Positions 20,501 through 64,000 of a DNA stretch of 64,000 nucleotides are shown here, in pieces. The DNA comes from Orbilia blumenaviensis. Taxonomy: Eukaryota > Ascomycota > Orbiliomycetes > Orbiliales > Orbiliaceae. Position numbers and translations under genes: made by a program. Location of the stretch: assembly GCA_036872755.1 (NCBI GenBank), contig JAVHNS010000010.1, positions 1,774,899 through 1,838,898 of the forward strand, read 5' to 3'. Each line of letters begins with the position of its first letter. Within the stretch, counting starts at the first letter, position 1. The notes below the pieces were generated by a model. It saw nothing but the letters and a program-made list of their open reading frames with translations, had not been told where the DNA came from and ran no database searches.

Positions 20501-23500
20501 TCAAAACAAATAATGCAGCTCCTCCAGGGTCTGAAGCACCTTCCAGGCGTTGGAGTAGGTTTCACGCTCCATCAGCACTGTTTCGGCCAGCCACGAACAG
20601 TAGTTTCCCCAAGCATTAAGGTTTTGCTCGCGAACACCCATTTCACCAAAGACATGAATACGTATGGCCTGATCATAGAAAACAGCGGTGTAGAGGGCTA
20701 GGCAGGCCTCTGAGCACTTGCACCCTTCCATGCTGGACGCTCGCAGACATATCCCTTTCGGAATCCCACATTCGACACAAACATCCTGCGTCCAGTTTGG
20801 ATACTGATCCAGAGGGATGTAGGTAGGGCAGTCGTCGATGCTGTGACCAGCTTCGCACCCCAGAGTGAAACGGCAGTAGGCGCAGTTGGTTTGGGCAGCA
20901 GTGATGAAGGAAACGATATTAGCAGCCTGGGTAGCCCTAGCAGCGTTACGGTCAAGACGAGGGAGTTCTAATGCAGGAGTCCTCCTAGCTACAGTGGTAG
21001 CAACATATTCTGGCCCCCTCCTCTCAGTGTCGCAGTTGTCGCAAAGAGCCATCCCCCCCATGACGCAGTCAATCGCCTTATGGTTCCCGTCCATGAACGA
21101 ACTTATGACCCAGCGGCGGCACCCCTTAGTGGTTAGGTACATATCTAAGGCCTAAAGTATATATTAGTTTCGCGACTACGATTTTAACTTTACGGACTAC
21201 TTTAGCAGGAACATTATATTTACCTTGTAAGCCTCTTTCCTCCACAGCTGCCGGTTGTTGTAATTGACGTCGAAGAAAGAAGATCGCCTGCAGATGACGG
21301 TGTTTACAGCAGGGGAGCCGTCCCTCCCGGCTCTGGAGCTTTGCTGAACAAGATCAACGAGTGTATATGGGCGGCCGACGTGAACGACAGCTACCACATT
21401 TTTGGCATCAACCCCAGGCCCGAAAGCGGTTGTAGCAAACAAAACTCCACCCGTCTCATCCCATTCATCCAGTGTATCTTGGCGGTCATCAATGTTCATT
21501 TCCCCCTCATACTTATAGGCATTAAGCTGATCTTTGAGGTCCTCTGCTTGCTCCCGGGAACGACAAAACGCAAGGATCTTGTTTCGCTGAGGTTGGACTC
21601 CTAGGGCAGAGAACTGGGCCTTTAGTGCATTAATATAATGAACAGCTTCTCCGATTAGATCTTCCACTGTCATAACCTTGTATTGCATATTTGGGACGTT
21701 GGTGGTGCTTCGGATTTCTTGGAAAGAATTAACGTGAAAAAAGTTACAAATTGGGGCTAGCATCAACGGCGGAACCGTCGCTGACATGCAGACAAGCTGC
21801 AGACCCAAGTTGGTAAGTTTTGATAGCGCTGCCACGTCCCGAAACCCTTCGTCCAAGATCTGCTGGTGGATTTCATCTACAATGATTCGGTCCAGGCGGC
21901 GTTCGGCATGAAGTCTGCTTATCTGTTCAAGAAATTTGGGCGAAATAGCAGCCTCCGGCGTAGCTATAATGACCCCAGGAACCTTTTTCTCGATCCGTTT
22001 AGGAGCCTGCAACTTGTACACCGGTTGACCGTTGGCATCGTGACCAACAATCTCCGACACCCAATACGTAACATGGATACCCATATCAGCAGCCCGAGAA
22101 GCTACATCATCACAGGTGGAAATGAACGGCTCGATAATCACGCTAATCCCAGACTTAGCAGCCTTGATGGCGAGCAGGGCAGCAGTAGTTTTGCCGGCGG
22201 CGCAAGCAAGAGTGATCAGAAGGGGGGAGATGTTGCGCTTGTAGATGGCTTCAGCCGCCTGCGCCTGTTCTGGAAGCTTCCATTGAACACGGCTCATGGT
22301 ACCGTCGGCCTGGGCTGTAGAGTATTGCTTGTAAAGGACAGCGTGTAGCTCTGGTGGGTATTCGTCCCTTATGCTGAAGAGATTACTAACTGCGGAGGAG
22401 CCGGAGTAGTCGGAGGAGCCGGGGGGGAGGTGGCTAGCTGGGCCTGTAGAAGGGATATACGCTGGTGCTTGTTCAAAGGCAAGCCTCGGGGCGTGCAGTA
22501 CCTGCAGTCTAGCTGGATCGAGCTGAGTGCTGTGGGGGAAGGCTGGGTGGCCAAATCGGGGCTGGGCGCCAACGGAAAAGTATATCTTTGACGGCTCGAT
22601 CAGCCAGTTTGGTAGCTGGGGGGTTACACCGATGAAGAACTGGAAAAAAGCGGTTGCTCTACGGTACAGGTCCATGGTAATTTCATCCATATGGATGAAA
22701 CGGTTAGCGTCCCGGCCGTACCTGTTCAAGTTGGTGCGGCGGCCATGGCCGAACTGCTCTGCAGCCACATTCTCTTCTTCTTCAACCCTTTTCTCGATGA
22801 GCTGGCTCATCGGGTCTACATAGGCTCTGGTAATGCCGGCCATGATTTGGCGGTAACTGGAGATCTTCAGGGGGAAGCCGGTGACAGCTTGGACATTGGT
22901 CAGCATGTAGTTGGTGTACATTTGGGTGGTCCATGGGACGCCGTCGGCACCAGCGAACAAATAGGATGTGACATTCATGGAGCGCCTAGTCCTGAGGTAG
23001 TCGGCGAACGGATCTACGATCATTAGGTAGGTCAAAAACAGCGTCCCTATGCTTTCCGGGAAGAAACGGGCTATTCCTTTCTGATAGCCGGTTACGTGCT
23101 GGGTTTTGATATAGGCGCTGAGAAGCATTACATCCCCGTCAATCACAAAGAAATTACGGGGGTTGATAGCCGTATTGTATTTGCGAAGAGTGGAGAGTTC
23201 GGTACCTCGGGCAGGCTCCCCAGCCGTCAGCAAGGCTGCAATGGCAAACAGCTTTCGAATCTCCATATCTTGTTCAAGATATTCGTGGGACGCGGTATGT
23301 GATAATACGCCAGAATCAGGAAAGAACTTCTTGGCCAGGGCAGGTGTAGACTCGACTCTCTCCAGCAGCAGCTTAGGCTGGAACAGCGTTGCGTTCTTGG
23401 GGTCGGAACAGCAGGAGTAGCCGCGGGAGCTATCAGACGGATCATCAAATACCTGGGAAGGTAGGATTCTGTTATTTAGGCCCAACATCTGCTGGTTCAG

Positions 23501-25084
23501 CATGGCTTCAAGAGAGGGAGCGATGGAGCGGACGTAGAGACGGTGCGATTCGATCAGAAAGAGGTCTCCCCCATAGTACACACCGGTGCCGTCCTTGTTC
23601 CAGTGAAGCTTTCCAGCTTTGGAGCTATGGTCGGTAATCGCGTGACCGTATGCGTGCTGGGACAGCCATTCAGACATGGGGAAGCCGTTCGCTTCTTTGG
23701 TAATTGGCAGCAGCTGATCCAACTCTTCCTTCAAGGCATCGTTGAGAATTACAGCATCCTCCTCACCAACCATGGAGGCTAGTTCCCACGAGCGCCGTAG
23801 GACTAACAGCCTGGTACAGTAGCTCATCGCCGCAAACGTTTTGGTGCAGAAATCCGCAGTCTTCCACGTCCTGTTCTCAACACTCCATCCTTGGGTGGCC
23901 AGATAATTGAGAACTGGGTGGTCAAAACGCGAAATGATAGTAATCGGGATTGGTGTCTTCATGCATTCAATGATGACTTCCAATATATCCATTCTTAGAG
24001 CTTCCATATCAGGCTGGGAACCGGAAGTAGCAGCAAACTCCGATACCTGAAGGATCGCGCGCAGAATTCTCTCAACTTCGTCAGGGAAATCGACGCCACA
24101 CTTAAACGCCAATTCATCATTCAGCAGCAGCCGGCAGAAATAGACAACCATTCGAGTCATGGTGTTGAAGTAGTCATCCAAAGCCCCAACCGAGTATTCG
24201 CGGGTAAACGGGCGGCCGTCGTCTTCATCGTTTGGGGACTTGAGTTTACAAAGGAATTGGATGGCCGTTTGGTCGATATACGGGAGACTAGACTGCAGGA
24301 GGTGCCTAGTAGCATTCTGAATGACATCAATTTGGGGGCTCCGGTCGACATCCAAACGAGGGAGGGCGCAGACGGCTACGATAGACTCCTGAGATCCACC
24401 ACAGAACTCCAGCCAACCTGTTCGTTGCAGCCACGGAACCGGGGTACTCAGCTCTTCTGCACCGTCGGAAACATTGAGCCTCTCGTCCAGCATCTCTTGT
24501 ACAAATCTGGCTTCGTTGCTGGCCACCGGTCCTGTTTCCTGGAGCTGAACCTTGAACAAACTTTTATTGCGGGCAGGAAGGAAGGTTTGGCAGCTAATCT
24601 TGTCTTTATCGAGGAGTTTCGGGTGGCTACGCTGACCAACAGGGCGAATATCTGCAGGGCACCGGCCTCTGTGACTTGATATCGAATCCTTGGTGCTGTA
24701 GACTCTAGAGCAGAGGTGACACTGCCAGCCAAGACTAACGGCCAAGTAGGGAATCTCGGTGATACTTTTAGTTTTGATAGCATCCGAAAATGCTACTATA
24801 TTCTCCTCTGAAGATAGGTACCCAGTCAGGGACCGAATAACAGCCTCCGCCTGATTATTAACCGTGCGGCGCTTTATCTGGTGATCCTTGTTTCCAACTA
24901 GGTGGTTGACAATGGTCTTGGCCAAGACGACGTATTTACACTCTCTACAGATTGCTACTTTCAATGCTGTGGAAATTTGGGGCGTAGTAAGCTTGCAAAC
25001 AGCGAAGTTGAGTGGTCTTATCTCCTCAAACTTGGCTGTTACATCCTCGAAGGTTACGCTACCAAGTCTAACGCGGCTCGCCAT
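20501..25084 (-). CDS. zinc-finger / tyrosine-recombinase-like / RecQ-type helicase fusion protein (subtelomeric)
   Basis: Two exons, 25084-21224 and 21151-20501, with a 72 nt intron (AAG|GTAAAT ... TTTAG|GCC); 1503 aa from ATG 25084, as the frame upstream has only a TTG. N-terminus: two zinc-binding units, C46/C49/H61/H68 and C122/C125/H138/C142, like the OrsD (PF12013) region of fungal subtelomeric helicase proteins. Middle (about 560-820): tyrosine-recombinase-like core with AGEPARGTEL (R626), a possible strand lysine K660, SSYRQIMAGI (R745), FGHGRR (H780) and NRYG (Y789). C-terminal half: RecQ-type SF2 helicase with CAAGKTT (K965), DEIH (1070-1073), SAT (1101-1103), motif V FGPGVD, motif VI QQSSRAGRDG (1247-1256), then the RecQ zinc module CRRW..C..CDNC (1298-1327) and a second Cys/His tail (CAYC..H..C, CVECGIPKGIC). 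All catalytic positions look intact. Likely a mobile or telomere-linked gene product that cuts and unwinds DNA in the nucleus. Confidence 0.85.
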
Positions 25085-26202
25085 GATGGACCGTAGGCCA
25101 GCTTTGGGGCAAACTTGGGGCAAACTTGGGGCAAACTTGCAACCTTGGGTAGGTGTCGGGGTGGTGGTATTGAAAAACCGCTTGCAGGAGCTATTTCGGG
25201 CTAAGAAGCGAGACTAGGCTACGATTAGAGATTTACCATTAGCGTCTGGGGTGCATCTCAGGGATCTACAAGCGAAAGGGGAAAAACCTAGTGAAAGAGG
25301 AGCGGGAGCTGTGAAGTATTCGGGAGGAATTAGGGGTGCAGTGCGGGCTTAAGCGGGAGGTATCAGGGTATGATGCGGGCGAAGTTGATGAGCGTGAAGT
25401 TAGTGTGAATGAAGTTGGGGCGTGAAGCTGGTGCGGGTGAAGTTGGTGATTCTACAACGGCTGTTAGACGTGTTTTACAGTCACATATATATCCACACCC
25501 ACATGAGAGTGCAGTAGCTGGAATAGATTTTATATTGCATATTCGACTTACAATGAGATCTAGTTCAATGGTTTAAATGTCTGTTTGTCTATCAAGGTAG
25601 TTCGCGGTTGATTGGGGTGGGCTTGTGATGGAGTTCGGGATGTTACGGGTTTGATGTAGAAGAAGAAGTTGACTGATGTCAGGAAAGCACTATATTTTAT
25701 TATACATGTAGAAACGACCTATTGTGATATGTACATATTTGAATAAAAAGGGAAAGAAAAAAAAAAAAAAAAAATATACATCCCGTGGATTAGGGCTTGA
25801 TCCCCTCAGAGCGTAGAATCGATGAATGTAATATACCAGTCACGCTCTGAATAGATTACTTCTGTGTTGTCTGCAAAGTACAACGTTGTGGTATTTTTCC
25901 CTCAACACAAACAGTCACAGCCCGGTATGGGGTGGTCTCGTTGTATAGAGTTAGGGACTGAGGCATCAGTAATACGTGTATGTACACGACCAGACAATCA
26001 ATATTACATATCCATACCGACATCACCACCATCATCTCATGTCAGAGCTATAACCACCATCCTACCTCCCATATTTTCCATCACAGTACCTTTGACAAAC
26101 CAGTTTGTATGTTACCCCCGCGTTCGATTCGACTACGGATGTAGATTAGTATTAACTATCGTAGCCCCTAGTAGGAATTAGGAATTGAGAATTCAAGGCA
26201 AA
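25085..26202. promoter_or_regulatory. divergent intergenic region between helicase and pseudo-paralogue
   Basis: About 1.1 kb shared upstream region of two head-to-head genes. It holds a 13-bp triple repeat next to the helicase ATG (25105-25140), GAAGTTGG words (25386-25450), a run of A near 25757-25775 and no supported ORF. Joint expression is an inference from the layout. Confidence 0.5.
25105..25140. repeat. GGGGCAAACTT triple repeat
   Basis: Three tandem copies of TTGGGGCAAAC directly upstream of the helicase start codon. A diverged match, GGGGCAGACTTGG, occurs at about 38718 in the decayed region. Confidence 0.8.
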
Positions 26203-33900: not shown

Positions 33901-34024
33901 ATATTATTAGATATATATATATCCCTATACCTCTGTACATGTGGTGTTGGTGTTGGAATTTCCTTTTTGGGAAGTTTGTTTATCAGCACCATCACGACCC
34001 CCTACATAAAATTATCAATCATTT

Positions 34025-34085
34025 TCATCAACCATCACCCAACCATCACCCAACCATCAACCATCAACCATCAACCATCACCTAA
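34025..34085. repeat. AACCATCA microsatellite
   Basis: Imperfect tandem CAACCATCACC / CAACCATCAAC units upstream of the JmjC gene; a related ACCATCAACTACCCAACC tract follows its stop codon (36090-36130). Confidence 0.75.
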
Positions 34086-34240
34086 CCATCTCCAAACCAC
34101 CGCGGAAGTCTATTTGAATACCACCGATACTACCCACTCGAGACACACCTAGAAGCCTTCGAACGTATGCCCCAGAACCAATCCTCCTCCTCGTCGAGAC
34201 CTCCAGGAACAACGGATACATCGGATTGTGCTATCGACAG

Positions 34241-34491: not shown

Positions 34492-36096
34492 ATGTCCGTT
34501 CAGGGAGAGTTGAAGACGCGTCAGGAGTACTTGGAACTTCTGGACAGGCTGGAGAAGCATGGTCTAGTGGAGGGTATTCCCAGTTGGTCCGCTATTGTCC
34601 CCCGAGATCGCATCCGAGTCCTCCCCGTTTTCTCAAAAGAAGAGATCTCCCCTGGAACCGTCCCAAAGGACCATCCGTCTTTGGTTCGATCTTATTTTTC
34701 TCCAGACCACCCGGCGATGCAGGCTATGAAAAGGCTTCCCGATTCCCTCAATCCGGAAGGAACATATCGCGTCATGCCCCCCGGCTCTACCTGTGCCGAC
34801 GTACTATCATCACTCCGAGAGGAGATGGAAGTTCCGAGCAGCCAGTATACCACTGGCAGCCCCCTCTCTCCGGCAAGCCCGCCCTCTCCGGCAAGCCCGC
34901 AAACCAGCCAGCCCCAATCAAAGCGGATCCCAGGAATTATAGGTGCCAGGGTGCCCCAGCTCAACGACTTTCTCCCCGAGTCCCTCCTTTCGTCTATCGG
35001 ATTTTCTGTCGCCGGAAACGCCCTCAAGGATCGAGTTGCCAATATTACCCCGGCTGGCTACCAGGCTAATCCCCATGTGGATTTAATGGAGGTTGTTCTG
35101 GCTGTTGGTACCACCACCAAGCTCTGGATTCTGTACAAAACGCCGGCTGCAGATGTCAAGGGGACTATAATCCGGGAGTCGATGGATACCTTTGATCTGG
35201 AGTCTATGCGGAGGGTGCTGTCTACCTGGACGGCCGGTCCCTTTTATATCGTTTTGCAGAGGCCTGGTGACCTGCTTATCGTTCCCTCCGGCTGGTGGCA
35301 CTTTGTTGAGACCTTGACTGGCGGTGTGCTCTCTGGAATTGAAACGTTTCTAGCTCAAGGATTCAACATCCAGCAGAACGTCGCACACCTGGAGGCCGAG
35401 TTCGATCTAGCACTGCCTAGAGACCCTGCTCTCCGTACCGCATCCCACCAGGACGTCCAAGACGCCGTTGGGTACTTTTGGAAGCTGGTGCAATACACCA
35501 GCCAGCTTCTGGATCAAGATAAAGATCCTTGGCCCTTCCTCCGCTCTGTCACCGGTGCCCTCCAATCTCTCAAGAAGATGCTTGTAAGCATCTGCGAGAG
35601 TTTCAAGGAGTCTGTACTATCGTTCACCTTCTTGAAGTCCCAGTGTGATACCCTTAAATCGCTTCTTCGGAAGCTGTCAGGTGCCCTCAAGTCTGCTATT
35701 GAAAGAGCCAACGAGGTAATCGACGAGAGGGGCATTTGTGCAACCCTGAGAGCTTGTAAGTGGGAAAAGGGGCGGGTGGGCAGCGGTAAAAAAGGGGAGG
35801 GGGGGCCCGGCTCAGACGAGGTTGACTCAAATGTCGGCGGCGCTTCTGGCCCGAGTTCTGGTGCTGGTGCCATTGCTAGTCAGTCGGGTTGGGTCAGCCA
35901 CTGCCTCAACTCCCAGCGGCACTACCCATTGAAAATGTGGTTGGAATCCCTTGACGATGTCATAGCTTTCAAGAGCCAAGAACGAAAACGTAAGTTAGCT
36001 GAGTCCAGGGATGAACAAAGGGCTCAAAGAGAGGAGTCGAGGGCCAGAGCTACGGAAGAGCCGGTCCGAAGGAGCAAGCGGCTACCCAACCACTAA
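34492..36096 (+). CDS. JmjC/cupin-like 2-oxoglutarate oxygenase-type protein
   Basis: Single-exon ORF of 534 aa from ATG 34492. The centre carries a JmjC-type double-stranded beta-helix: NPHVDLMEVVLAVG gives the HxD pair (H195, D197), KLWILYK (210-216) offers the lysine usual for 2-oxoglutarate, and PGDLLIVPSGWWHFVET gives the distal histidine (H270), spaced as in JmjC enzymes. The N-terminus (1-50) has a coiled-coil-like LELLDRLEKHG; 118-145 is Ser/Pro-rich with duplicated SPASP; about 440-465 is Gly/Ser-rich; the C-terminus is strongly basic (KRKLAESRDEQRAQREESRA..RRSKRLPNH), suggesting nuclear targeting or nucleic-acid contact. JmjC proteins demethylate histones or hydroxylate proteins and nucleic acids; the substrate here is unknown. 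It lies beyond the second palindrome, so membership of the helicase block is uncertain. Confidence 0.75.
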   Translation: MSVQGELKTRQEYLELLDRLEKHGLVEGIPSWSAIVPRDRIRVLPVFSKEEISPGTVPKDHPSLVRSYFSPDHPAMQAMKRLPDSLNPEGTYRVMPPGSTCADVLSSLREEMEVPSSQYTTGSPLSPASPPSPASPQTSQPQSKRIPGIIGARVPQLNDFLPESLLSSIGFSVAGNALKDRVANITPAGYQANPHVDLMEVVLAVGTTTKLWILYKTPAADVKGTIIRESMDTFDLESMRRVLSTWTAGPFYIVLQRPGDLLIVPSGWWHFVETLTGGVLSGIETFLAQGFNIQQNVAHLEAEFDLALPRDPALRTASHQDVQDAVGYFWKLVQYTSQLLDQDKDPWPFLRSVTGALQSLKKMLVSICESFKESVLSFTFLKSQCDTLKSLLRKLSGALKSAIERANEVIDERGICATLRACKWEKGRVGSGKKGEGGPGSDEVDSNVGGASGPSSGAGAIASQSGWVSHCLNSQRHYPLKMWLESLDDVIAFKSQERKRKLAESRDEQRAQREESRARATEEPVRRSKRLPNH

Positions 36097-39000
36097 CCAT
36101 CAACTACCCAACCACTAACTACCCATCCCTTACCCATCCCCTCCCTCCACTATTAACAAAATTAAATGCTCACATATCTCCTCGTTCCTCTCCTGCCTGC
36201 GATCTCGTAATCACATACACCTGTCGTACCATCCATCCTTGTCGCACCTTTCCAAATTTGGTAAGGCTGATACAAGTCCCTCCCCGGCCTCTTGGCTGTT
36301 GCATCGTAAGCTGTAGTTACTCAGCATTGGACCAGCCTAAAGATGCTCCCTTCCTTTTTGACGAGCCTTTTTCGCATCCTCCACAATAAACATACTTTTC
36401 GACCACTATTCCACTACCCGGAAATATATATATCATCCATCCCGAACCCAACCGCAGGGCCACCGATCACTCCTAAACTCAACTTCAAAGTCATCAAGAA
36501 CTAGCGATGCTAGTGTGTGCTCGCCCAGCGGTTCTCGCGTTTGCCATCGTATCACTCTACCTCTTTCGGGCGCTCTGATAATATATACAATTAAATACTA
36601 GGAGGTTGCCATTTTCATGTAAGTACGAGTAGGGCCAGTGTTAACGCATTAGGTTAAATTTACCTACTTGAAGTCTGGAGGTAAGAACTGCGATCGACTT
36701 TGCCTATGGTGTCCAGATCCGAAGCCGTATAATTTGCGGGAATACCGAATTTGTTCACGCAACGTCGAGAACATAGCTTTTGATGCGTCTATATGTCATC
36801 GTCATTAGCATTCGGTAAACCCATAAAGCTAAGCCAGTCATTCGTAGTCCTTATTTTTTCTGGTGATATAAAGAGAGTTTCGCGCTACGGGATTCCGATA
36901 CCTGAACTTAGGTGGCATGAATATCCATCATGATCTCTAACTTGAGTTTCATATTTAGGTACCTTTACAGAACACCCCCTAAAAACTAAAATATCTAGTC
37001 CACAGGCCTAGGACTCTATATGGGCATGATAACAAGCAACCATAGAACTTTAACAGTCCCCCTCCCCCCATCATTATAACTATTCTGCCATTTTTATTCC
37101 AGCCGCAGGCAGATTGTAAACCGTAGCCACGCATGACATGCCCCGGGCGACTTCATTCCCAAACACCAACATGAAAGTATATATATACCTAGCTGCATTA
37201 GGATAAATTGATATGGACCTGGGCCGAAGGAAAACTACTGGATGTACATCTGCTGGGTTAATGTCCCAGGATGTATCAGTTGTCCCACCCGTTTGATGGC
37301 TCTGGGCTGTGGCTCCCTTTGTTTCTTGATTTTGGACCCGTATATCATGGTTCCGGGCATATTACGATACACAGCCCTCCATTCACCTTACTGGCACGAG
37401 GAATAGCCACGAGATATAGATAGTAGCCATGTTTACGCTCCACTCTGAGCCCGTTCACAGGTTCCTAGAGAAACCGTGATTATCACATATACAGCCGTAC
37501 CTGTTGCAGGACAATTGTGTTCATATTGCCCTGATCTCGGGCTCTGATAGCGAGAGCACTAATGTACAGTGTTAAGTATAGTAAGACGTCTATATATTCA
37601 TCCGTATGCGTACATAGACTATACTAGAAACCGCATAGTTATTTGATGTTTTCCCTCCCGATTTTTGCTCATGTATATGGGATCACTGTGCTTCTGCTCC
37701 GGGAGAACTTGGTGTTTCTCATGGATAGACAATCACATCATGGGTACAGAGGTACCTTCGAGATGATTGCTACCTCCCCTGAGAGTTTACGGCGTCGATT
37801 CTCTTAGCCCCACTGGAAGAGAGGCCTTTATCTCAAGCTATAATCATTGGTATAATAATGCTGTCCTATTGTCTTTCACAAGGCACTCAGACCCCTTTTA
37901 ACAGCTACGTTTTTCGACTACTATTTCATCACATGTCTTGTTCTGGGCTGTACCGCAAGCTCTTGGAAACAGCCCCTAATAAGGTATTGGTAAGGCTAGT
38001 GCCGCTGCACTATACTCTAGCCAGCAGTTTCCGTATCGACTGTCTTAAGACTCTTTCTATGAATCCTCTATTCACATAGTCGGGAACTGATCGTCTCCAT
38101 GTACAAGAGAAATGCATGAATAAGGTAAGTATCCTCGTTCTTCATTTTCTGGAACGATGGGGACTCCAGAAGGTCAGCCTCATTTCCCATTTATTTCGGG
38201 CTGTAATCTCACATGTACAAACGGATCAAAATTATATTCGGAATGTTTTTGTATGGAACGGTATCAAACACCCCCCCTCCCTCGGTTTTAAACATCTGCA
38301 GCATCTATTGTATTTCCTTGTACTATCAATCACACGCTTCAAAGCAAGGCATCTAAATAGCTCAGGTCAGGTGGTATACTTTGGATTCGGTCCTTAGGAC
38401 CCTTATGGGCATACTATCCGGGGCCTAGGCCCAGGGATCAGCCTCCTGGGAATGCTGAGAACTGAAGCCTAAGTCACTACCTTTCTGTACCTGTCTATCT
38501 ATTTATATCCTGGGAGCAGCACCGTTAAGCTCAAAAGACTTGTGACCGAAGATTTAGTACACCGGACTCAAGCCGTGTAGAAACTCTCAAGGTCGCCCAG
38601 CCCATACACCAAATATAAGCTAGCTGCGACCTGTGAGAACAATAAGACTTCTTAAGGAGTGGCTGTATTCGTATTATTAAAGATGGTGCCTGAACTAAAA
38701 CTAACTACACCCTTTTGGGGCAGACTTGGTTTGAAGTTGGGAGGAATAAGGTTACTAATATAGCCTCTTTAATGGGACACATGGTGGGGAGACGGGGCAT
38801 AAAACGAGCATTCTCAGGGACTTTGGCACAATACCTTGCATACTATTACTGAGTACCCTAACCCACTTGGTATGATCTTGGAAACGCCTGAGTGTATCCT
38901 TCGCCGTCGAAGGTGGTGACCGGCTGACTTACGAAGTCTAGATCCCGGTTTAAGAGGTACGCACCTGGCCAGTGTATACGTATGTAGTTCTTAGTATATC

Positions 39001-57195: not shown

Positions 57196-57934
57196 GACAC
57201 GAAGAATTACTTGATTTAATACTGTCATGAAACTCGGTGCATACCTTCAGTAAACGCGGTCAAATACTCATCTAAATAAGATATCGTTTTTAGCGATGCG
57301 TTTGCGGCTGGGGCCTAGGCCCGACTCTTTCTTCGTTGCATCCATTTCTTGCATTACTCTTGGCGGCAATGGCGACGGCTACTTCCTCAACCCTCAGGGC
57401 TTGGATCTTGCGCCTCGTACCAACTAGGCTGCCTTCTTGCGCTATGTTGACATTACATCGACCAATATATGGGCGTTTCACTGGCATAGCATGGTGAGCA
57501 ACAGTATAGTCGCCTGGACCACCTTTTCTTGAACTTAGACTCTTCTCTCTTCTCAATTTAAGATTCTTTGATTGACCCGTCGGGTCGATTACCGAGCCTC
57601 GTAGTCGAAGGTATATCAGGAATCGCTAGCTAAAGTACCCGAAGGTCTCGGTCGGTGAGGCTATATATAGAGCACGATGATGAAGATTATTTTGCGATTG
57701 ACTCGGATATCATGATCGTTGTCTGCGAGTGGCGTGTAATATTAATATATTTCTTGCCCCGCATTAATTACGAGATGAAGTTATTATATATATATCAAAT
57801 CAATCTAAGTGCTGTTTCATCCCAGACGTTTAAGACAAGATGATAATGGTTTCCTGCAATACCAATCACTGGGAGTATATTGTGTACGCCAAATATTTAT
57901 TAAGAATTGTGACCAGTCCGGGGTGGTGTGTGAG

Positions 57935-58190
57935 AACCGTTTGGTGTGATGTTTGGAAAGTGTGATTGGAATAAAAAGTAGTGTTTTATTGGGCGAAACG
58001 AGAGGTGGAGCGGTAACCGCTGGTTATAAAGTTGTTAACATGTATTATTGAGAAGTTATGTTTGATTATAAGTATAAATGTAAAGAATTGTAGTTTTTAT
58101 GATAACCGCTAGTTGGGGTATGATAAAAATAGTATTTAAAATTAAAAAAAATAGGAGTTAAAAGATTAATAATTTTGACGGTAACCGCTG
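57935..58190 (+). repeat. AACCGCT boxes at 79-89 bp spacing
   Basis: AACCG occurs at 57935, 58015, 58104 and 58183 (spacings 80, 89, 79); the last three extend to AACCGCT. Text around copies one and four also aligns (GGTGTGATGTTTGGAAAGTG against GGGTTTGATGTTTTGAAAGT). It is a diverged tandem repeat, and most remaining C bases of the area lie in these boxes. Confidence 0.75.
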
Positions 58191-61100
58191 GGTTTGATGT
58201 TTTGAAAGTGCGGTGAATAAAATGGTGTTTAATGTTTAATATTTAATTGAAATAAAAAAAAAAGTAAAAGTTAAGAAATGAAGATTGAGAAAGTTTATTT
58301 AGAGAAATTGAATTGAAATTGTTTTTATAAATATAAATAAGAGAATATAGAAAGTTAAAAAGAAATAGTATGAAAAGAATAGTATTATATAAAAGTTAAA
58401 GAAATTTTTTAAAAAATGAAAGGAGATATGAAAAAATATAAATATAAAAGAAAAAAATAAAAAAGATGTATTGGGAAAATATAATGTAAGTTGAAGGATA
58501 ATGATATTTTTAGTAAAGAAAATATAAAAGATATAAATAGGATAAATAGAATGAATTAAGGGAAAAAGAAAAATAAAGATATAAAAAAAAATAAAAATAA
58601 AGAGTTTTGAAAAAAAAAAAAGAAAAATAGATTTGAGTGAGATGTGGAATGGGGTAAGATGGTGGAAAGGGGAAAAATAAAGGAATAAACGGAATTAATA
58701 AATAAAGATAATTGTAAATAGATTTTGAAAAGAATTAAAGAGATAAAGATAATATATAAATATTTAGAAAAATTAAGGTAAGAGAAAAATGGGGAAAAAT
58801 AGATGAAATATAAAAAATGAGATAAAAAAAAAGGAATAATAGGTAGTTATTTATATTAAGATGAAAAGAGAGAGATGTAAAAATTATATATATATATAAA
58901 TTTAAGAAGAAATAAAAATATAAAAATATAAAAAAGTTTTTAAAATTTAGAAAAAGAAGAAGAAAGTTAGGGAAAAAATAAAAAAAAAAATATTATTAAA
59001 AAATATATAAAAAAGGAGATTATAGAAATTAAAAAAAGGAAATTGATAGGAAGAGTAAAGATATTATATAAAAGTTAAATGAATAAAAAAGAAATAAAAA
59101 ATGATAAAATAGATATAAAAAAAAAGATAAAATAGATAAATTATAATTTGGTGATAAGAAAAAGGTTTAATAAAAATAGAATTATAAAAATAATGAATAA
59201 GTGATATTGGAAAAGAAAAAGAATGTGGAAGTAAAAAAAAATATGAGAAAAGAAAGGTAATAAAAGTTTTTTTATAAAAATAAAAAATAAAAAATAAAAA
59301 ATTAATAAAGAATGAAGATAGTAAAGAAAGAGAAAAAATGAATATATAAGAAAAGTAAAAATAGTGAGTAAATATTTATAAGGAAATAAAAAAAGTAAAA
59401 GATTATATTTATATATGAAGGGAATAGAATAAATAATTTTTTTTGGAAGAAGAAAAAAAAATATTGAAATAGGTTGGAAATATTATTGAAAAAAGAGAAA
59501 TAAAAAATAAAGTAATAAATTAATAAGAGATTGTATTATAGTTAAAAAGAGGGAAAAATTAAAAAAAAAAGAATGTAATATAAAAAGTTAATAAATATTT
59601 AGAAAAGTAAATATATATATATATATAAATTAAAAAAATTAATGTTAGAAAAATAAAGATATTAAAGTTATAATATTAATAATAAAATAAATGTGTATAA
59701 TAAAAAGATATTTTGAAAGGATGAGAAATAGAAGTATAAAAATAATAAAACTGAAAATGTATATATTTTTGGAATAGAAAAGTAAAAGAATAGGGAATGA
59801 GTTGATTAAAGAAGAAAAAGAAAAGTTAATAAAAGAATATTAATAAAAAATTAAAAAGAAATTGAGAATAATGATAGAAGTTTTTATTGAGAAGGTAAAA
59901 AAATATAAAAATATATAAAATAAAAAAAAAAAAGAAAAAGAAAGTATTGAAAAAATAGAAAAAATAAAGAAAATGTTGTTAGGGAAAATAATAAGTAGTT
60001 TTAAAAAAGATGAAAATAAAGAAATAAAGAAAAAATAAAATAAAATAGAAAAAAAGGAGGATATATATATTAATAGAGTTATGAAGTTAATAAAGAAATT
60101 AAATGGAAAATAAATATTTAATAAAAAGAAATAAAATAATAAAAAAATGAAAATGAGGGATAAATAATAAAAGAGAAAAAAAAAAGATAAAGATAAAAGT
60201 AAAAGGATTAATAAATAAATGTTGTTTAAGAAAATTGGGAAAGAAGAAGAAGAAATAAAAATTAATAAAATTAAAAAAAAAAGATTATATTGAAAAAAGT
60301 GTAGTTAGGGTTTTAAAGTAATGAATGATATGTGAATAATTGAAAATGAAAAAAAAGATTAGGAGAAATGGAAATAAGAAATAAGAAATAGTAATTTATA
60401 AAAAATAAAGAATAATAATGAAATATAAAAAAATGAAAAATAATAGAGAAATAATGAATAATTATAAATAAAGAGGGAAAAAGAGGAAAATAAAAATAAT
60501 AAAGAAATATAATTATGAGAATAATTAATGGTTAAGTTTGATAAAAATAGAAAAGAATAAAATAGAAATGTGAGAAGTAATAATTAAATAAGTAAATGTA
60601 AAAAGATTAAAAGTAAAAAATGGTGGAAAAAATAATAAAAAGAAAAAAAAAAATATAGTAAAAAGATAATGTTAGAAAAAAGAAAGAAATGAAATAATAA
60701 TAATAATAATAATAAATAAGTGATTTTGAAAAATGGAAATAAATGGGTTTTAAAAATGGAAAAAAAAAAAAGTAAAGGGAAGAGATAAGTAATTGAAAAA
60801 AGGAGAAAAATAGAAGAAAGAAGGTTGGTAAAAAGAAAAAGATAATGAAATGAAAATAGTAAGAATAGTAAATAAGTGATATGGAAAAATAATAAGATAA
60901 TTAAATAAATAAAAGGAAAAATTAAGAAGGATATAAAAGAGAATGGAAAAAATAATAATAAAAGAATTAATAAGTGGGTTAGAGAAATGGAAATAATTGG
61001 AAAATTAAAAAAGAAAGTTGGAAAAAATAAAAATAAAAATAAATATTAAATTAAATAAAAAATAGTAGAAAAGATGAAGAAAATGAAAATGAAAAAAATA

Positions 61101-61249
61101 ATAATAGATAAATAGAAAAAAGAAAATAAAAGAAAAAAAAAGTAAGAAAAAAAAAAGTAAGAAAAAAAAATAATAAAATAGAAGATAAATAAGAAATTGA
61201 ATTAGGTAGAATAGATAGGAAATAATAAGAAAGAGAATTAAAAAGAAAA

Positions 61250-63640
61250 AAGGAATGGATGAAGAAATGAATGAAGGAATAAATAAGTGAATAGATGAAT
61301 AAGTGAATAAATAAATAGTTAAGTGGATAAGTAAATAAATGAAGAGGAATAAATAAATAATTAAGTGAATAAATGAATAAAGTAATAGATGAATGTTTGA
61401 ATAAATAAATGGGTAAATAAATGAATAAAGGAGTAAATGAATTAAGGGATAAAGGGATGAATGAAATAATGAATAGGTAGGTAAATAAATGAATAAAATA
61501 ATATGTGAATGAATAAATAAGTATATGAATGAATAGAAGAATGAATGAAGAAATGAATAAATAAATGAGTAAGTGAATGGATGAATAAGTGAGTGAATAA
61601 ATAAATGATTGGATGAATAAGTGAGTAAAAGAATAGATGGATAATTAAGTAAATTAATGAATAAATAAAAAAATAGTAAGTGAATAAATAAATATATGAA
61701 TAAATAAATAAAATAAGAAATAAATATATAAATAAGTAAATAGATGGATAAATAATTAGATGGGTAAAAAAAGAATGTTAAAGTGAATAAATAAATAAGT
61801 AGGTAAATGAGTAAATGAATGAATAAATAGATGGATAAATAAGAGAGTTAAAAGATAGATAAATAAATAAGTGGATAAATGGATAAATTGGTAAATAAGT
61901 GAATGAATTAATGAATAGATAAAAAAATGAATGGGTGTTAAGGTGGGTGGGTGGGTGTATAGGTGGAGGGGGTGGATAGATAGTGGATAAGTAAGTGGAT
62001 AAGTGAATGAATAAATAAATAAATAGATAATGAAGGAAATAAATGTATAGGTAAGATAATAAAAGAAATAGATGTATAGGTAAATAAATAAATGGATAGA
62101 TGGATAGATGTATAGATGTATAGATGTATAAATGGATAAATGGATAAATGGATAGATGGATAGATGGATAGATGGATAGATGGATAGATGGATAGATGGA
62201 TAAGTAAGTGAATTAATAAATAAAAAAATAAATAAGTGAATAAATGAAATAATAAATAGATGGGTGAATAGGTGAATAAATTGGTAAGTGATTAGGTAAA
62301 TAAGTAAATGAATAAATAGATGGATAAATGGATAAATGAATAAAGAAGTGGTTAAAGAAGTAGTTAAATAAATAGATGAATAAGTAAGTAAATAAATAAA
62401 GAATTAAGTGAATAAATGAGTGAATGAATAGATGGATAATTAAGTGAATTATTGAATAAATAAAAAATAGGTGAATAAATAAAGAAATGGATAAATGAAG
62501 AAATGAATTATTAAATAGATAAATAAATAAGTATGTATATAAATGAATAAATGAATAAATGAATGATTAAATGGGTAAATGAATAAATGATAAAATGAAT
62601 AAATAAATAAGTAGGTAAATGGGTAAATAAATAAATGAATAGGTGTATAAGTGAAAGAAATGAATGAAAAAATAGATAAATAAATAGATAAATAAATGAA
62701 TAGATGGGTAATTGAATATATAGATAGTTAAAAATGAATAAGTGAATAAATGAATAAGTGAATAAGTGAATAGAAGAATGGAAGAATGGAAGAATAGATA
62801 GATAGATTTGTAAATAAGTGAATGAATTAATAAGTGATGGGTAAATAAGTAAATTAATGAATAGATGGATAAATGGATAAATGAATAAAGGAATAAATAG
62901 TGGATAAGTAAGTGAATTGATAAATAAATAAATAGTGGATGAATGAGTGAATAAAGAGAGGAATAAATAAAAAAATAGAGGGTTAAATAAATGAAATGGA
63001 AGATATATGGATAAATAAAAGAATAAATGAATAAATGAATAAGTAAATGAGTGAATGAGTGTGAATAAGTGAATAAATGAATAAATGATTGGGTATATAT
63101 GTGTGTGAATGAGTAGATAAATAAGTGAATGAATGAATGAATAAATGGTTGAGTAAATAAATAAATAAATGTTAAAATGGATAAGTATATAGGTAGATAA
63201 ATGGGTAAATGAATAAGTGTATAAGTGAAAAAAAATGAATAAATAGATAATAAAAAAAATGATTGAATAAATGAATGAATGAATGAATAGAGGAATAAAG
63301 AAATTATTGAGTGAGTAAGTGAATGAATGAATGAATGAATGGATGAATAAGTAAATGAATGAGTATATAATTGTGTAAGTGAAAAAAAGAATGTGAATGA
63401 ATAAATAAATAAATAAATAATAGAAGAAATAGATGAATAAGTAAGTAAATAAATGAATGATTGAGTGAATAAGTGAAGAAATGAATTAATAGGGAAATGA
63501 ATAAATGAATAAATGAATAAATGAATAAATGAATAAATGAATAAATGAATAAATGAATAAATGAATAAATGAATAAATGAATAAATGAATAAATGAATAA
63601 ATTGATAGTGAATGAATAAGAAAATGAATAATAATGGATA
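61250..63640. repeat. degenerate AATGAATA / GATGGATA microsatellite field
   Basis: Four- and eight-base units (GAAT, AAAT, GGAT, AAGT) dominate, all lacking C. A GATGGATA run lies at about 62095-62200 and a GGGTGGGTGGGTG patch at about 61940-61957. Confidence 0.9.
63495..63601. repeat. perfect AAATGAAT array
   Basis: About 13 uninterrupted copies of the 8-mer AAATGAAT, the cleanest stretch in the microsatellite field, about 250 bp before the telomere. Confidence 0.92.
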
Positions 63641-63846
63641 AATAAAATAATAATAAAGTTTGAAAGATGTAATAAAGTAATAAAATAAGAGAGTAATAAA
63701 AATAGAATAGAAATAAATGGTTTTAATTAGTTTTGAAGTGTTTTTTGAGGTGTTTTTGGATAGTTTTTGTAGTTAAATTGGTTTTTTGTAGTAGTTTTGT
63801 AGTTGTGGTGTGTTTGTTTGTGGATAGGGTTTGATTTAGTAGAGAA

Positions 63847-63893
63847 TTAGGGTTAGGGTTAGGGTTAGGGGTTAGGGTTAGGGTTAGGGTTTT

Positions 63894-63932
<39 letters not shown>

Positions 63933-64000
63933 TAGGTTAGGGTTAGGGTTAGGGTTAGGGTTAGGGTTAGGGTTAGGTTAGGTTAGGGTTAGGGTTAGGG
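63847..64000 (+). repeat. telomere, TTAGGG repeats
   Basis: The terminal 154 bp are TTAGGG repeats with a few variants: TTAGGGG (about 63870), a TTTTTTAGGG slip (about 63889-63898), TTTAGGG, and shortened TTAGG units near 63971-63982. The G-rich strand is the + strand, so the window's right edge is the chromosome end. The unit is the standard one of filamentous ascomycetes. Confidence 0.97.

Follow-up and report, generated by a model that had tools for sequence, protein, structure and literature searches.

APOBEC3G and bisulfite each cause hypermutation of subtelomeric overhangs in cdc13-1 yeast, the targets being C residues on the overhanging strand; C to T accounts for 81.9% in the case of bisulfite (available part of PMC3521656). 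Telomeric repeat-containing RNA (TERRA) starts at CpG-rich subtelomeric promoters, according to the accessible text of PMC10093737, and telomeric R-loops would displace the G strand. Repeat-induced point mutation (RIP) entails loss of C from repeated DNA, and GC skew, the strand asymmetry of replication or transcription, is a bias between the two strands. Here we describe a tract, nearly devoid of C on the G strand, beside a telomere of the fungus Orbilia blumenaviensis, and compare it with these systems. The window, meaning the whole 64,000-nucleotide stretch of DNA that was analysed, makes up the right-hand end of contig C10 (JAVHNS010000010.1, positions 1,774,899 to 1,838,898 of the forward strand) in an assembly of 42.46 Mb and 23 contigs (GCA_036872755.1). 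The analysis covers the assembled sequence of this one genome; contig ends are labelled s (start) or e (end), so that the tract of the window is C10e.

The tract occupies positions 58212 to 63846 of the + strand and runs up to the TTAGGG telomere (63847 to 64000) that forms the terminus of the contig. A preliminary description of this DNA, made from its letters alone, had claimed that only two C occur in about 5.63 kb here and that A is far more frequent than T. A recount agreed on both points, giving 2 C in 5,635 bases (A 3167, C 2, G 1039, T 1427) and fractions of 0.562 for A and 0.253 for T, with G remaining at 18%. One residual C, at 58690, stands in a CpG (ACGG) and the other, at 59751, in a CpT (ACTG); no further C follows the latter in the remaining 4,249 bases of the window. 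The C content of positions 1 to 57900 is 22.8%, and the longest C-free run elsewhere in the window (outside 58212 to 64000) measures 69 bases (58110 to 58178) and lies within the edge zone of the tract. A chance origin of the C absence is excluded, the log10 probability of two or fewer C being about −68 even if C is assumed at 2.9%, the value of the C-poorest AT-rich ends described below. The C-free tract beside the telomere is real in the assembly sequence.

The same composition recurs at other chromosome ends. A search with four TTAGGG units hit 107 places, and the matches listed mark 18 contig ends, all of which were read. Among these 18 telomere-bearing ends, seven carry a C-poor tract, so that the window's tract has counterparts at six further ends, always on the G strand. 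When the outermost 2 kb were compared with the last 250 bases dropped, 0–8 C were counted at C10e, C6s, C14s, C15e, C20e, C12e and C1s, as against 47–417 at the other 11 ends. C/(C+G) at the seven ends was 0.000–0.013, a bias between strands far stronger than GC skew. C14s and C20e are 99.7% identical across 10 kb, and their differences are nearly all in A-run length, the runs being mostly shorter in C20e. The two are probably one locus assembled twice, as judged from this near-identity; C20e was therefore not counted as independent, which leaves six tracts (C10e, C6s, C14s, C15e, C12e and C1s). As a source of a substitution spectrum the pair was dropped, since it offers almost only A-run length changes. 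The base missing is C on the TTAGGG-carrying strand in all six independent tracts, of which C6s is the shortest (2.1 kb) and C1s the longest (9.9 kb). The C10, C15 and C1 tracts resemble one another only weakly and in low-complexity sequence (63–71% identity). We found no description of such tracts in the open-access literature searched, a scope that takes in few subscription papers.

We examined the context of the C that remains. Across the six tracts, 186 C are left in 30,417 bases (T, 7,850), 175 of them in CpG and 11 in CpH (C followed by A, C or T). The CpG share is 134/136 at C1s, 19/20 at C14s, 16/20 at C15e, 5/8 at C12e and 1/2 at C10e, and C6s has no C at all; the two residual C of C10e are too few for a context preference, and the context evidence comes from the sister ends. 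Loss of CpH is thus nearly total, and CpG is what is retained. CpG/(CpG+TpG) declines toward the telomere at C1s (Spearman 0.88), C15e (0.93) and C14s (0.82); the gradient is non-significant at C12e (0.82) and C10e (0.50), and C6s is without C. Counts per 100 bp also reveal an inner-edge zone in which CpH is rare and CpG common, clearly at C1s and C14s and more weakly at C15e. In the C1s tract, 2 CpH stand against 1,770 TpA plus TpT, and 134 CpG against 1,333 TpG; if these dinucleotide counts are at equilibrium, C-to-T exceeds T-to-C about 900-fold at CpH and about 10-fold at CpG.

The divergence between repeat copies inside the tracts provides a second line of evidence. These counts, like those at the edges given below, come from overlapping and non-independent alignments, with thresholds that differ between regions. 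Among the copies in the C1 tract (30 alignments), G stands opposite 182 of 1,160 aligned A and C opposite 6 of 1,257 aligned T, so that differences forming C are few between diverged copies in this long tract. The corresponding figures for C15e, from little data (four alignments), are 12/157 and 0/120, and C10e gave zero repeat alignments at the threshold used. An array in C1 with units of about 51 bp, of which 7 of 11 units were aligned after four had been removed for length, holds 20 minority changes, none of them to C. As growth from a C-free seed should gain T-to-C as readily as A-to-G, the scarcity of T/C differences between the diverged C1 copies argues for continuing removal of C.

We tentatively read the tracts as the mark left by a repeated loss of C from one strand, in which an exposed G strand would be deaminated from C to T with CpG spared; we rate the chances of this reading as somewhat short of even. 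The G-rich strand beside the telomere would repeatedly be left single-stranded, most likely because the C strand is resected inward from the end, which would produce an extended 3′ overhang, or else because the G strand is displaced during telomere-directed transcription. Deamination of cytosines on the exposed strand, and fixation of the resulting T, would outpace the origin of new C. Those in CpG would be spared for longer, perhaps through 5-methylation by a DNMT5-type enzyme, and their loss would come later and be more complete near the telomere. The CpG gradient toward the end favours resection, and the inner edge of the C1 tract, a CpG-rich array with 51 CpG in 500 bp, would suit a transcription start; either route may apply. 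The preliminary description had proposed strand-specific damage to a G strand displaced by TERRA-like transcription. Its proposal of damage to an exposed G strand is backed by the CpG-dominated residual C and by the gradient in three of six tracts, with TERRA-like transcription as a possible cause of the exposure.

The likeness to the yeast overhangs lies in the strand (that of the 3′ overhang), the position next to the telomere, the changes at C and, for bisulfite, the dominance of C to T (available part of PMC3521656). The yeast hypermutation is experimental and scattered, whereas the tracts described here are natural, near-total and CpG-sparing, and no evident agent came from the two deaminase families searched. 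As for TERRA, its promoters and the C1 inner edge are alike CpG-rich, and the tracts are known here from DNA sequence alone. A stronger version of the proposal, which we consider somewhat unlikely, is that a natural bisulfite-like mutator converts every unmethylated C of the exposed G strand to T over generations but leaves methylated CpG intact; the sequence of each end would then record the extent and frequency of its single-stranded state. For how long native ends are single-stranded is difficult to determine in living lineages, and the tracts, if the proposal is true, would be a heritable, end-by-end record of it. It would also mean that a eukaryote can carry kilobases written in a three-letter alphabet on one strand, and that, inside one genome, a telomeric process can be told apart from RIP by its sparing of CpG.

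A candidate for the CpG-methylating enzyme is encoded on contig C3, where residues 27–1061 of a DNMT5-like gene product match PDB 7r76_A (2,348 amino acids; E 3.4e-218); the stretch of 1,061 residues stops short of where a fused SNF2 ATPase part would lie. That entry is deposited under the name DNA repair protein Rad8, and we take it to be the Cryptococcus DNMT5. Besides the DNMT5-like gene, the assembly has two further DNA_methylase loci, both presumably RID-like. Loss of uracil glycosylase was considered, and two loci of the uracil-DNA glycosylase (UDG) family are present. According to a review, DNMT5 maintains CpG methylation and has been reported chiefly from Basidiomycota, although Verticillium is named too (available part of PMC13297926).

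Several observations weigh against the proposed one-strand loss. A exceeds T in five of the six tracts, with A/(A+T) of 0.64–0.78, the value at C1 being 0.53, and where C drops at the C6, C12, C14 and C15 edges, it is A that climbs and not T. Because C-to-T alone gives the opposite bias, the A excess counts against C-to-T as the sole process, as the preliminary description had already argued. To account for it, founder repeats rich in purines or some other bias would be required; such repeats show up as the period-4 arrays of C10e and C15e and may be its source. Moreover, 11 of the 18 telomere-bearing ends have no tract, and the edge zone with CpH gone and CpG kept was not seen at C6s, C10e or C12e. 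A dedicated DNA deaminase was not found among the two families searched, PF00383 (six matches) and PF14437 (five, mostly at the same loci), whose members here look to us like housekeeping deaminases.

At the C1 inner edge, single units do show C-to-T change: the tandem unit GACCGCTAG of the inner copies passes outward into GATCGTTAG and then GATTGTTG. Farther outward, however, most copies of ACCGCT in a second array are unchanged, two ATCGTT copies being among the variants, and the C1 edge is therefore no simple ramp. Repeat pairs pooled over four inner edges differ as C/T at 23 sites, A/C at 9, C/G at 9 and A/G at 63; CpH sites (n = 177) read T 28 times, A 11 times and G 12 times, and CpG reads T in 22 of 267. 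This points to a mild C-to-T preference only. The direction of change at the edges is read from position and not from an outgroup, and comparing the repeats there does not decide it. Shared-word tests across the edges after in silico conversion were negative or weak, the best C-to-T result being z 3.2 (C10, k = 11), and BLAST searches across them in converted alphabets gave 4 matches for C-to-T, 22 for C-to-A and 1 for C-to-G. Neither approach favoured C-to-T over C-to-A or C-to-G to a usable degree.

Among the other explanations, RIP can be compared directly with a control from the same genome. The tracts share with it the loss of C in repeated DNA, and they occur in an ascomycete class with RIP (available part of PMC7882544). 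The 11 tract-free ends comprise eight that are joined by homology as an AT-rich family and three that look ordinary. Between the AT-rich ends C13e and C4e we counted 636 differences, all of them transitions and nearly balanced between the strands (C/T 319, A/G 317). Eight pairs of AT-rich ends were compared for context. In the four pairs with at least 20 CpG sites (22–127), CpG reads T about as often as the other contexts do, for instance at 82/127 CpG and 697/1,129 CpA in the C4e/C8s pair; the remaining four, with just 6–11 CpG sites, have variable T fractions of 0.33–0.67. CpG observed/expected is uneven in AT-rich DNA (C13e 0.00, C11s 0.09, C9e 1.92). Over 9.6 kb, the eight AT-rich ends retain 2.9%–22.5% C, against 0.04% in the C10 tract. 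As far as these comparisons tell, the RIP-like change at the AT-rich ends is two-stranded and strikes CpG too. The tracts, being one-stranded, CpG-sparing and nearly empty of C, are therefore unlikely to be the same product; ordinary RIP was set aside on this ground, and the earlier statement that RIP alone does not explain the tract agrees with this difference. There remains RIP by RID-type methyltransferases that is confined to one strand here; in its favour are the plentiful repeats at these ends and the two presumably RID-like DNA_methylase loci besides the DNMT5-like one. Given the two-strandedness of the C13e/C4e changes with zero transversions, the mutation of CpG like other contexts in the better-populated pairs and the retention of at least 2.9% C at RIP-like ends, we regard a one-stranded RIP as quite improbable.

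Growth from a C-free seed would explain the absence of C by descent: telomere-like or microsatellite units lacking C on the G strand would have been expanded by slippage and recombination. The make-up of the tracts speaks for such growth. In the distal half of C10e (61266 to 63631), a degenerate AATAAATG-type array, T recurs with a period of 4 (observed/expected 2.99), and period-4 T is found in C15 too and more weakly in C12 and C1; a founder effect would suit the purine richness, C is missing from the telomere as well, and the C10, C15 and C1 tracts have their weak, low-complexity similarity in common. The proximal half (58212 to 61200) is A-rich (0.60) without a strong T period, and a C-free subterminal stretch with T at 0.41 (63631 to 63846) adjoins the telomere. 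Descent does not predict a CpG-dominated residue of C or its gradient in three tracts, nor the many A/G and few T/C differences between C1 copies, and on balance we think it unlikely as the explanation. The earlier idea of end growth by reverse transcription of a G-less template followed by slippage fared similarly, in that slippage has clearly shaped the distal half of C10e, but a C-free template alone leaves divergence by A/G but hardly by T/C unexplained. Selection might instead exclude C from the G strand or its RNA, say to suit a single-strand-binding protein or to keep a transcript unstructured, and the loss is indeed near-total and borders the telomere. Yet the tract is present at just 7 of 18 ends, the tracts other than the C14/C20 pair share nothing beyond weak, low-complexity similarity, and the exemption and gradient of CpG are hard to derive from selection, which makes this explanation very improbable. 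Scarcely credible is an artefact of long-read base-calling or consensus near chromosome ends: the A-run differences between C14s and C20e do suggest consensus error in A runs, but the 11 other telomere-bearing ends of the same assembly retain C, and residual CpG, graded edges and tract sequences unlike one another match no error pattern known to us.

Other compositional biases occur at ends of this genome. Stretches at the start of C8 and the end of C3 have the opposite bias, being poor in G on the telomeric G strand (for instance A 250, C 109, G 4 and T 137 in 500 bp at the C8 start). The starts of C7, C4 and C10 lack a telomere and are 92–94% A+T; they are possibly centromeric or broken AT-rich blocks.

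The C10e tract is bordered by a short ramp at its inner edge (57920 to 58211), in which C thins out from about 57920 and vanishes from 58212. By position and by CpH and CpG counts per 100 bp, the C remaining in this edge stands mostly in CpG or in three copies of the motif ACCGCT (58016 to 58021, 58105 to 58110 and 58184 to 58189, + strand), which contain 6 of the 8 non-CpG C of the stretch examined. A general protection of non-CpG C by ACCGCT was considered and rejected: 18 of 31 such C lie in the motif at the C1, C6 and C10 edge zones, but 0 of 31 at C12, C14 and C15. At the C17 end, AACCGCTAACCGCTACGCGGCGCGGTTAACGCGG stands immediately beside TTAGGG, so that an ACCGCT motif abuts the telomere.

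Elsewhere in the window, two runs of the + strand are free of G, at 33997 to 34101 (105 bases) and 36082 to 36167 (86 bases), and flank or overlap a JmjC-like frame at 34492 to 36096. A frame of 1,308 amino acids on the − strand (21197 to 25123) has DEAD, Helicase_C and OrsD domains and represents a helicase-like gene near the end. A DUF6601 protein of the window, which very likely places the host among the Orbiliaceae (nematode-trapping fungi) and near Arthrobotrys, is 81% identical to a protein of Arthrobotrys megalospora and 80% to one of A. conoides.

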